The position numbers and the translations under genes are program-made. 42,904 nt of DNA from Candidatus Moraniibacteriota bacterium (lineage in GTDB: Bacteria > Patescibacteriota > Minisyncoccia > Moranbacterales > UBA1568), in contig JAAXTX010000006.1 of NCBI GenBank assembly GCA_013336285.1, positions 1-42,904 of the forward strand, read 5' to 3'. The stretch's first letter is position 1. Every line of letters starts with the position of its first letter. Shown here one piece after another: positions 34,808 through 38,880 of this stretch. The notes under the pieces are model-generated. The model did no database searches. It saw nothing but the letters and a program-made list of their open reading frames with translations, and was not told the origin of the DNA.

Positions 34808-35560
34808 TCAGAGATATCTCTTCGCCTGGAAATCGATATCGGGGTCGAATGCGAGCCGCACCTGGAAGGGACTCGGCTCGATGACGACCCGCACCACGTC
34901 GATGACCTTCTTTCTTTTCGTATCGGCGTGGCCGATAGCCTTTCCCTTCGTGATATCGATCTGCAGTCTTTGCGGATTGATCGCGTTTCGGATCGGTTGT
35001 GTTCCGGCGGATGCGCATATCGTTCGGATAGAGAGATGATCGGAATCGAGCGGTTGCACCGATCCGCCGGCGCTCAGATTGTACGCTGTTGAGCCTTGGG
35101 CTGTCGCCACGATGATGCCGTCCCCGCGGAATATCTTTTCGGGATATTTTTCGCCTCGGATCACGCCTTCTACGACGCTTCCGCTTTCGGCCTTGACATA
35201 CGCGTCGTTGAAAACCAGGAATTCGCGTTCCTTACCCGACCTCGTGACGAATGTCGCTCTCAGGAGCTGCATCGGGATGATGTCGAGTTTTTTCCCAAGC
35301 AGTCTTTCGAACTGTTCCGCATCATCCACGGGATTCAGCAGGAATCCCCGCGTGCCGCGGTTGATCCCGATGATAGGAACCCCGTGCATATAGTACTTCG
35401 GTACCGCTTCCAGTATGCCTCCATCGCCGCTTGATACGATGAGAAAATCGGCTTGACTCGGTTTATTTACGACCTGGAATCTGTCGCCGGCAAACCAACT
35501 TTTCACGTCCGCACTGCGCGGATCATTGGATGGTACCAAAAACAATTTGCTTTTACCCAT
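34808..35560 (-). CDS. NAD kinase-like protein
   Basis: VSSGDGGILEAV, GINRGTRGFLLNP, GDGIIVATAQGSTAYNLSAGG; GGAGGTGAT SD. Confidence 0.87.
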   Translation of the reverse strand: MGKSKLFLVPSNDPRSADVKSWFAGDRFQVVNKPSQADFLIVSSGDGGILEAVPKYYMHGVPIIGINRGTRGFLLNPVDDAEQFERLLGKKLDIIPMQLLRATFVTRSGKEREFLVFNDAYVKAESGSVVEGVIRGEKYPEKIFRGDGIIVATAQGSTAYNLSAGGSVQPLDSDHLSIRTICASAGTQPIRNAINPQRLQIDITKGKAIGHADTKRKKVIDVVRVVIEPSPFQVRLAFDPDIDFQAKRYL

Positions 35561-35860
35561 ATATCACCTCCGTGGGGTATCTGGTTGTCGGATTATCAAG
35601 GTTCTTTTCCTCGGTCGAGCTTCCCAAATCAATTGAGTATCTCGATAAAGGAGCCGATGATCTGGAATATTGCCGTTACCGGTATGACGATTCGGCGGCG
35701 TTGAACGGAATATCGGTATGGCTTGTGCAACCTGACTGATGATTGGGATGTGAACATAACATTCATATGGATAACTGTCAAGGTGTCGGAGTCAGATCTT
35801 CGCCGATCAAATTCCCGATTCCGAGAATGCTTGGATTGACTCCCGAAACGTGGTCTCCAT

Positions 35861-35888
35861 AAAAAATAAGATCACTCGTTGAGTGATC
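35861..35888 (-). terminator. Intrinsic terminator of the minus-strand small transcription unit
   Basis: Minus strand GATCACTC aac GAGTGATC TTATTTTTTAT. Confidence 0.8.
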
Positions 35889-35964
35889 CGTTGTTATATG
35901 GTCGGCCGGTTGGCCTTCTTATTTGTAGAAGAATGAACGATTTCACGCTTCTATTTGAAGGATA

Positions 35965-36150
35965 TCACCCGATGATGACCGTGTCAAGCGGAGAGCGATG
36001 GTCTTCGCGATGACCGTTAACCTGTTTTCTGATTATCGGAAAATAATCGGAAAATAATCGGAAAAAAGAAAAAGGATACTCGGCGGTGCGCGTCGCAAGA
36101 GCATCCTTCTTATATGGGCCGCTGTTATGTTTACGCGCACGATGCTTCAT
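35965..36150 (-). CDS. Possible small basic protein (alternative to ncRNA)
   Basis: MKHRARKHNSGPYKKDALATRT...; SD AAGGAGG at 36164-36170 lies closer to the preceding 3-codon ORF ATG CTA CGA TGA. Confidence 0.4.
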   Translation of the reverse strand: MKHRARKHNSGPYKKDALATRTAEYPFSFFRLFSDYFPIIRKQVNGHREDHRSPLDTVIIG

Positions 36151-36246
36151 CGTAGCATAGTATCCTCCTTGTTATGGCAGGTTGGCGAATGTGCGAATAT
36201 TGGGCATCGCGATAATCTACGAAAGAACAGGTGTTTGATGTTCTCT

Positions 36247-36275
36247 ATGGTAGCACAATTATCAAGCACTGTCAA
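36247..36275 (-). promoter_or_regulatory. Sigma70-type promoter
   Basis: Minus strand TTGACA-N17-TACCAT. Confidence 0.65.
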
Positions 36276-36384
36276 GTGTCTGCATCAAAACATCCATGAA
36301 TCGCTTTTTTTGCTTTATAAAAGCCATTTCATAAAATCATCAGATCGTATGGTTTTCGGCTTGAATTAACTTCCGAAACAAATA

Positions 36385-36421: not shown

Positions 36422-36640
36422 TCACCAATCGGGATAATCCCCTTTGGTCAGGCGAACGTCGTCACGTCGCTTCTTTTCATCCTCGCAGCGTTTGCAATAT
36501 CCGGTCAGCGGCGCGAAAAATTCTTTCGTCCCATCGACAGCGGCTTCTCGTGCGATCTGCCAGAATTCAACGGAGATTTCCCGTACAACTTTCATGAGCG
36601 GCATCGCCGCCTCTTTCAGGGCTTCGTATTTTTCTTTCAT
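36422..36640 (-). CDS. Small helical hypothetical protein with CxxC
   Basis: 72 aa MKEKYEALKEAAMPLMKVVREISVEFWQ...YCKRCEDEKKRR; SD GGGAGGT; own terminator. Confidence 0.65.
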   Translation of the reverse strand: MKEKYEALKEAAMPLMKVVREISVEFWQIAREAAVDGTKEFFAPLTGYCKRCEDEKKRRDDVRLTKGDYPDW

Positions 36641-36812: not shown

Positions 36813-38225
36813 TTATTTTCTATTTTCTAATGCTGAAATCTCCTTAATGAGCGCTTCGGCGAGCGATTCGGCTTCTTCGGTGGTCTTTGCTTCGGTATAG
36901 ATGCGGATGATCGGCTCGGTATTCGAAGAACGCAAATGGACCCACGAGTCGGGAAAATCGAGCTTGAGTCCGTCGCGGGTATCGGCCAAGGCTTCGGGAT
37001 GTGCTGCCGAGATCGTTTCGAACAGTTCGGAAAGTCTGTCTTTCGGTATCGAGATCTCGAGTTTCTTTTTGGCCATTTCGTAGATCGGCAGCGTCTTTCG
37101 ATAGTCGGACAGACTTTTTGATTCTCCTTCCGCGCGCCCCTCCCGCCAATCGGAAAATGCCTGCACGAAGAGTGCGACTCCCACGAGCGCGTCGCGACCG
37201 TAGTGGAGCGCGGGCAGGATAATCCCGCCGTTCCCCTCGCCGCCGATCGTCGCCTGTTCCTCTTTCATCACCGCGACTACGTTCGCCTCCCCTACCCTGG
37301 CGCTTACGCATTTCTGTCCGTATCTTCCGGCTATGTCGCGGAGGGCTCGGCTGCTCGAGAGATTGTTCACGACCGTCCCGGGATTTTTCCGCAGGTAGAA
37401 ATCCGCACAGGAGACAAGCGTATATTCCTCGCCGAAGAGAGTGCCGTCTTCCTGGACGAGCGCGAGTCGGTCGACATCCGGATCGACGATGATACCGAAA
37501 TCGCAGTCCGATTCCTTCACTCTCGCGACAGTTTCCGCGAGATTGTCGATGATCGGTTCCGGATTACGGGGAAAGATGCCGCTTCCTCCGCAGGCGAGTT
37601 TCTCGATATGGGACACTCCCAATCGCGTGCAGAGTTCGGGAATGATTTCGGATCCGGCACCTTCTACGGCGTCGACAAGGACGCGGAAACCCTGCTTTCT
37701 CACCTGGTCGGTGTCGACGAAGGGAAGACCGAGTATCTTACCGATATGCATCTCGTCGGCCGACGTATCTTCCGTCACGGTGCCGATACCGTCCCACTTT
37801 GCCGGTTCGTATGATTCGGATTTCACGATGGAGAGAAAATCCGCGAGCTGGTCCGGGTCGAGGAATTCTCCGAGGGAGTTCAGGAGTTTGAGCGCGTTCC
37901 ACTGTATCGGATTGTGCGAGGCGGTGACGATGATCCCTCCGTCCGCGGATCGTTCCGTGACGGCGAGCTCGACGGTCGGCGTGGTGGCGATACCGAGATC
38001 GATAACGTCGATGCCGGAGAGCGCGAGCGTGCGCGCGACGAGAGAGGAGATCGTGTCGCCGGATGGTCGCGTGTCCCGACCGAGAATGACAATCGGCTTC
38101 CCTTCCCCCGCGTGTCGCTTTCCGATCCACGCGGCGAAGCCTTCGACGTATGCGACGATATTTTTCGGCGTAAGGTCTTCCCCGACGATGCCCCGGATGC
38201 CGGAGACGCTGATCATGAGAGACAT
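36813..38225 (-). CDS. Phosphohexomutase (phosphoglucosamine/phosphomanno-mutase family)
   Basis: ISVSGIRGIVGEDLTP, GRDTRPSGD, VTASHNPIQWNALK, DPDVDRLALV, GGEGNGGII, RSSNTEPIIRIYTEA. Confidence 0.93.
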   Translation of the reverse strand: MSLMISVSGIRGIVGEDLTPKNIVAYVEGFAAWIGKRHAGEGKPIVILGRDTRPSGDTISSLVARTLALSGIDVIDLGIATTPTVELAVTERSADGGIIVTASHNPIQWNALKLLNSLGEFLDPDQLADFLSIVKSESYEPAKWDGIGTVTEDTSADEMHIGKILGLPFVDTDQVRKQGFRVLVDAVEGAGSEIIPELCTRLGVSHIEKLACGGSGIFPRNPEPIIDNLAETVARVKESDCDFGIIVDPDVDRLALVQEDGTLFGEEYTLVSCADFYLRKNPGTVVNNLSSSRALRDIAGRYGQKCVSARVGEANVVAVMKEEQATIGGEGNGGIILPALHYGRDALVGVALFVQAFSDWREGRAEGESKSLSDYRKTLPIYEMAKKKLEISIPKDRLSELFETISAAHPEALADTRDGLKLDFPDSWVHLRSSNTEPIIRIYTEAKTTEEAESLAEALIKEISALENRK

Positions 38226-38272
38226 AAATTGCTTTGATTCATCACGACATGAAGTATATATGAGCAAAAAAA

Positions 38273-38306
38273 ACTGTCCATACCCAGGGCATCGGGCGTG
38301 GACAGT
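38273..38306 (-). terminator. Intrinsic terminator
   Basis: ACTGTCCA...TGGACAGT followed by TTTTTTT on the minus strand. Confidence 0.75.
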
Positions 38307-38331
38307 GCGTAACGGACGGTTCATCGGGAAA

Positions 38332-38880
38332 TCAACCGAGTATGCGGACCTTTTCCCCGGAAAAAAACAGGAACTCCCCGTCATAGGTGATGCAGTGGTT
38401 CATATTCGATACCGTTTCATAGATGAATATGGCACCATATTTTTTCAACTGGAAAATAATCCCGACCGGACTTCTCGGCTCCCCTATCCGTATGAATTTT
38501 TCATCGGACTGGATCGAGACGTTCTCGTCGGCCCCATGATGTACGTCCATGACCTTCGAAAACGGATTCCAGTGGATATGTGCGGGAACATCGATTCGCA
38601 GCAGACAGAGACAGGCATCGACTTCCAGGCGATGTTTTTTCGTGGCGCTGTCGTCGAGGACGACCGACCATTCCTCAGGGGTCAGATCCCTGACGGTGGA
38701 ATCATCAAGGGCGAATCTTGAAACGATAAGATGGAAGCCTGGAGGGTGAGCGATCGGCAATACGCCGTCCGATGTGCGGATGAGGACGTGATGTTCTTCA
38801 TGCGTGTCGGGTCCGTTGAGGGAGAACGAACGATTGTCGTTGTCGAAGGGCCAATTGGAAAATAGTTTGCGGAATATCAT
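38332..38880 (-). CDS. Hypothetical protein
   Basis: 182 aa MIFRKLFSNWPFDNDNRSFSLNGPDTHEEHHVLIRTSDGV...; own promoter and terminator. Confidence 0.65.
   Translation of the reverse strand: MIFRKLFSNWPFDNDNRSFSLNGPDTHEEHHVLIRTSDGVLPIAHPPGFHLIVSRFALDDSTVRDLTPEEWSVVLDDSATKKHRLEVDACLCLLRIDVPAHIHWNPFSKVMDVHHGADENVSIQSDEKFIRIGEPRSPVGIIFQLKKYGAIFIYETVSNMNHCITYDGEFLFFSGEKVRILG

Follow-up and report, generated by a model that had tools for sequence, protein, structure and literature searches.

The window, that is, the whole stretch of DNA analysed (42,904 nt of a 1.35-Mb genome), holds on its minus strand a predicted small RNA of approximately 180 nt, TU1 (36062–36241, with its start at ~36240), which on comparative sequence grounds is a member of a genuine RNA family that Rfam lacks and that is restricted to a single genus of Candidatus Moranbacteria. 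Four copies have been found in 3 of the 6 genomes of the genus examined: that of the window, two in G003 (G003a and G003b), and one in G005 (homologues L028, L033, and L030). In all of them, a promoter, the string GGAGG-N5-ATGC, a mini-ORF, and a terminator hairpin follow one another in the same order. Judged from the letters, the family is new in sequence and of a known general kind, and its unusual trait is a conserved ribosome-binding site that serves an ORF of only 2–9 codons. An RNA family that is supported by covariation and conserves a ribosome-binding site for an ORF of almost no length represents a concrete, testable case; should ribosome engagement prove to be the function of TU1, a free-standing RNA would be putting its mini-ORF to unusual use.

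TU1 lies in a stretch that the original prediction described as a single minus-strand unit of about 380 nt, complete with start and stop signals. This extent is not supported. The stretch is split by a terminator hairpin (36110–36070) and by a second promoter-like site (35987–35959), because of which it is best read as two consecutive predicted units, TU1 and then TU2, flanked on the minus strand by a phosphohexomutase gene plus a 72-aa gene on one side and by an NAD kinase-like gene on the other. The starts of both units have been placed from promoter-like sequence and the end of TU1 from its terminator. The region contains four promoter-like matches where shuffling predicts 3.0, and six terminator-like matches where it predicts 3.2; matches so near the shuffled rate prove nothing when taken singly. 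The proposal of a novel structured sRNA survives for the first ~180 nt, which have covarying homologues in two other genomes and no Rfam match, and not for the 380-nt extent. The 11-bp tandem repeat, announced as threefold, is present in 2.8 copies according to TRF (36035–36065, minus strand), and lies between the two units, where the terminator of TU1 has its T-rich tail.

The promoter predicted for TU1, TTGACA-N17-TACCAT, is found at 36247–36275 (minus strand), and carries an extended −10 element (GTGCTACCATA). All four copies are preceded by the form TTGAYW-N13-GTGCTANNATA. The only exact match to the extended family promoter motif in the 42.9-kb window is the TU1 promoter itself, and four matches are obtained when up to three mismatches are allowed, compared to 0.45 expected. 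The presence of an extended −10 promoter, with a motif common to the four copies, argues for TU1 having a promoter of its own. The 5′ hairpin AGAACA-N9-TGTTCT has also been confirmed in the sequence. Among the copies, no convincing alignment of the structured 5′ leaders is obtained other than that of the two G003 paralogues with each other, and the relatives are longer than the RNA of the window (215–240 nt versus ~180 nt). Upstream of the promoter, a 24-nt stretch with TGGCTTTTATAAAGC (36306–36329) has one further copy in the genome, near another intergenic stretch (L003, G000:C39:16612–16635).

At the opposite end, folding brought to light an intrinsic terminator that had been missed, placed within a 61-codon ORF and formed by a 12+3-bp hairpin, AGAAGGATGCTC-ttGCGacgcgcacCGCc-GAGTATCCTTTT, and a T-run (36110–36062). 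Its 12-bp stem is extended by an inner GCG/CGC and closed by a 17-nt loop, TTGCGACGCGCACCGCC (36070–36110, with the T-run reaching 36062), and it is due to the size of this loop that a simple terminator scan overlooks it. The hairpin folds with −18.8 kcal/mol. Across the four copies, 95% of the cells of the stem are paired and nine pairs have changed on both sides, a level of pairing that none of 500 shuffles attained and that slid partners brought only to 40–66%. A T-run follows the hairpin in every copy. As read from these changes, the terminator hairpin is under structural selection. Its loop is identical at 16 of 17 positions between the window and G003a, and at 15 of 16 between the window and G005, where it is one base shorter, whereas the stem arms hold 33–75% identity; the second G003 copy, a paralogue, has a divergent loop (11/17). 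A segment upstream, GTGCGCGT (36132–36139), is complementary over 8 bp to the loop sequence ACGCGCAC in the window and was considered as a weak candidate for a pseudoknot. It was rejected: shuffles performed as well in 1.5% of cases for the window, but in 36% for G003a and 37% for G005, and a slid control outscored the real pairing on covariation.

The hairpin was found in G003 by DNA search, where promoter, Shine–Dalgarno (SD) sequence, short ORF, and hairpin keep the order of the window. A first covariance model, built from the window and G003a and searched against 131 genomes of the order, returned G003a (2.6e-25, this copy being part of the model), G005 (2.6e-9), and the second G003 copy (4.6e-8), so that the covarying hairpin is found in two other genomes, and all the members recovered fall into the same genus. 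With the four-sequence model, neither the family nor 384 genomes of the class gave another convincing member; model hits in G027 and G034, as well as elsewhere in the class, look, where inspected, like ordinary terminators, coding sequence, or low-scoring chance matches. Of nine hits to the loop pattern in the GTDB genome contigs, only CAITOC010000088.1 (G003, Ca. Moranbacteria) fits, and the eight others, from proteobacteria, acidobacteria, and planctomycetes, were set aside by organism names alone. Sequences in G005 and G012 that nearly match the loop look like coding sequence. Rfam gave no match in the window at the gathering threshold, and none under relaxed conditions with E up to 5 for TU1 and TU2 of the window or up to 1 for the three relatives. 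Viral contigs, phages, and plasmids contained no TU1 match, the sole plasmid hit having an E of 0.2 over 39 bases.

Between leader and terminator, a Shine–Dalgarno sequence, AAGGAGG (36164–36170, minus strand), is located 5 nt before ATGCTACGATGA, the mini-ORF ATG CTA CGA TGA (MLR*, 36147–36158). Both this spacing and the ATGA overlap of the mini-ORF with the 61-codon ORF (35965–36150) are as predicted. GGAGG-N5-ATGC is invariant in the four copies and has one match in the window, compared to 0.26 expected. The reading frame behind it ranges from 2 to 9 codons: MR* in G005, MLR* in the window, and MLRRRTPRA* and MLRRRI* in G003. Among the four copies, the putative ribosome-binding site and its AUG are kept while the surrounding sequence changes. 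A stop within nine codons after the AUG is not rare by chance, at an estimated 35% or so per copy. The second start codon was proposed to lie in a hairpin, ACGATG-aag-CATCGT, which exists in the sequence and in the fold of the window; it is missing from the fold of G003a and was discarded as a conserved feature.

As for its role, the most likely reading, with about an even chance, is that TU1 is a stand-alone regulatory sRNA, strongly promoted, terminator-ended, and lineage-specific, with a mini-ORF that engages ribosomes. The conserved SD–AUG followed by an early stop suggests that ribosomes engage the RNA but leave no protein product. Ribosomes would initiate on the mini-ORF and be released after 2–9 codons; the RNA would thereby be marked, protected, or gated, or a leader-type peptide produced, and no protein would result. 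The conserved and exposed loop, on its part, suggests an interaction in trans, in which the RNA would act through its GC-rich 3′ hairpin loop by base pairing or protein binding. Besides TU1 itself, sites complementary to the loop with up to two mismatches number seven in G000 and five in G003, numbers not clearly higher than the three and five for a reversed-pattern control; no antisense target shared between the G000 and G003 sites was seen, in a comparison limited to the sites themselves. A bolder version, by which these RNAs would form a new class of sRNA in candidate-phylum bacteria that captures initiating ribosomes on an ORF of 2–9 codons, as a decoy or a ribosome-gated RNA, and acts via the conserved terminator loop, is unlikely.

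TU1 shares with intergenic terminator-ended sRNAs its own promoter, a length of ~180 nt, a structured body, a U-tract terminator, and, in the relatives, the absence of an adjoining gene from the transcript. Unlike them, it holds a conserved ribosome-binding site with an ORF of 2–9 codons, its terminator has a large GC-rich loop whose conservation exceeds that of the stem, and it is not in Rfam and is limited to one Moranbacteria genus. Dual-function sRNAs are similarly small RNAs in which a strong SD precedes a translatable ORF; however, the ORFs of dual-function and peptide-coding sRNAs mostly encode 10–50 aa (PMC5521070), whereas those of TU1 comprise 2–9 codons with at most Met-Leu-Arg in common, which makes a functional peptide doubtful. 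In a limited literature search, no publication on small RNAs of Moranbacteria and no description of a free-standing RNA of this make-up were found.

The surroundings of TU1 bear on whether it could be the remnant of a decaying small-protein gene, whose promoter, SD, and terminator persist, whose coding part has been lost, and which has no present function. In the window, the phosphohexomutase gene (36813–38384, PGM_PMM domains) precedes the 72-aa gene (36422–36640, minus strand, without Pfam match). Orthologous phosphohexomutase genes (71–76% identity) are located upstream of a TU1 copy in the window, G003, and G005. The same locus has nothing between this gene and the next one in G001, a 68-aa gene in place of a TU1-like unit in G002, and, in G004, a promoter-like site along with a short ORF enclosed by a hairpin, dissimilar in sequence to TU1. 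Such variability of small genes at the locus (a homologue of the 72-aa gene is found in G003), the varying ends of the mini-ORF, and the distribution over three of six genomes would fit a remnant. A dead gene, however, should retain neither GGAGG-N5-ATGC, nor the promoter, nor nine compensatory changes in a stem, and its loop should not be more conserved than that stem; this explanation is improbable. The RNA family itself is most simply accounted for by vertical descent at a locus that changes fast.

Several other observations concern this locus. Small proteins of 68–82 aa without Pfam match are encoded there in the window (36422–36640, minus strand), L091 (5975–6223), and L036 (~2453–2659). 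The protein downstream of the phosphohexomutase is divergent (30% identity between the window and G003), and the likeness of the G002 protein to those of the window and G003 is one seen by eye only. In G003, the paralogous small RNA copies (L091, 5802–5898 and 7406–7526) lie on either side of the homologue of the 72-aa gene and a gene for a CsoR-like metal-responsive repressor, and their flanking the same genes suggests a local duplication. Several occurrences of a short inverted-repeat motif like CCGAGGACNGTCCTCGGAG (L002, ~960–1195) lie in the interval that separates the CsoR-like gene from the second small RNA copy. The G004 locus (L037, 2916–3090) combines a promoter-like TTGACA with a G-rich stretch resembling an SD, and its strong terminator-like hairpin encloses a 7-codon ORF (MSSGPLP).

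A short ORF followed by a terminator hairpin is also the arrangement of leader-peptide attenuators, in which the progress of ribosomes on a short Arg-containing peptide would control terminator read-through into a downstream gene. The mini-ORF of TU1 has the strong SD and the terminator behind it, Arg codons occur in every copy (MR, MLR, MLRRRI, and MLRRRTPRA), and the window offers GTGCGCGT as a possible pairing partner for the terminator loop. However, as mentioned above, this anti-terminator pairing is not supported by the controls. Furthermore, the next gene is convergent in G003a and G005 (YgaP-like TM), so that the RNA leads into no gene there, and at least two copies are not attenuators. 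The next gene of G003b seems on inspection to have its own promoter, and the next same-strand gene of the window, the NAD kinase-like gene (34808–35560), begins ~500 nt away, at 35560, with TU2, another terminator, and, at 35781–35753, a promoter-like site in between. No co-transcribed gene is thus seen, with separate units in the window and G003b and a convergent neighbour in the other two copies, and attenuation is a distinctly doubtful explanation.

Instead of regulating a gene, repeated initiation and drop-off on MR or MLR might tie up ribosomes or Arg-tRNA and slow growth, as a toxic or tRNA-sequestering minigene. As in TU1, a good SD precedes an extremely short ORF in the lambda bar minigenes. 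The same applies to the two-codon mini-ORF of the axe-txe operon, which regulates the downstream gene in cis and is not toxic (PMC8708949), and drop-off of fMet-Arg peptidyl-tRNA has been observed in E. coli (PMC10192219). The window (3 codons) and G005 (2 codons) combine very few codons, among them CGA, with an optimal SD, but the G003 copies comprise 6 and 9 codons. In addition, the axe-txe minigene resides within the transcript of the gene that it regulates, whereas the mini-ORF of TU1 belongs to an independent terminator-ended RNA. A minigene of this kind is very unlikely.

The 61-codon ORF (35965–36150, minus strand), put forward as an RNA-regulated micro-protein, is probably not a gene. 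It has no Pfam match, and a protein search of 28 family genomes gave no homologue. The frame is not kept in the relatives: in G005, the equivalent frame closes after 10 codons, and in G003b it has no overlapping start. Its stop codon is found ~97 nt beyond the end of the terminator T-run, so the terminated RNA would not contain a stop codon for it. That either this ORF or a lengthened mini-ORF gives rise to a functional protein, with the RNA being an ordinary mRNA, is highly improbable despite the good SD, the coupling through ATGA in the window and GTGA in G003a, and the eight residues LATRTAEY that both share in the coupled frame, since these residues are encoded by the conserved RNA loop, which is off by one base in G005, and are better explained by conservation at the RNA level.

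With TU1 kept as the stand-alone candidate sRNA, the remaining part of the stretch corresponds to TU2, a predicted RNA of ~92 nt (35862–35953, minus strand). TU2 is probably a second small RNA, unrelated to TU1 and genome-specific. It is preceded by the promoter-like TTGACA-N17-TATCCT (35959–35987), with three mismatches to the family promoter motif, and exhibits three hairpins, the last of which is the intrinsic terminator predicted there, GGATCACTC-aac-GAGTGATCT (35889–35869). The sequence GGCC-aacc-GGCC is likewise present. From the nested stem that had been proposed, UAGAAG...CUUCUA is retained, while its outer CCTTC/GAAGG arm overlaps the −10 region of TU2 and would accordingly be outside the RNA. 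No convincing homologue of TU2 was found in the 131 genomes (best E 0.006, at chance level). Its minimum free energy of −26.6, compared to −13.0 ± 2.8 for shuffled sequences (z −4.9), points to a structured RNA. Further downstream, a third promoter-like site, TTGACA-N17-TATGTT (35753–35781, minus strand), is located in the ~190 nt leader upstream of the NAD kinase-like gene.
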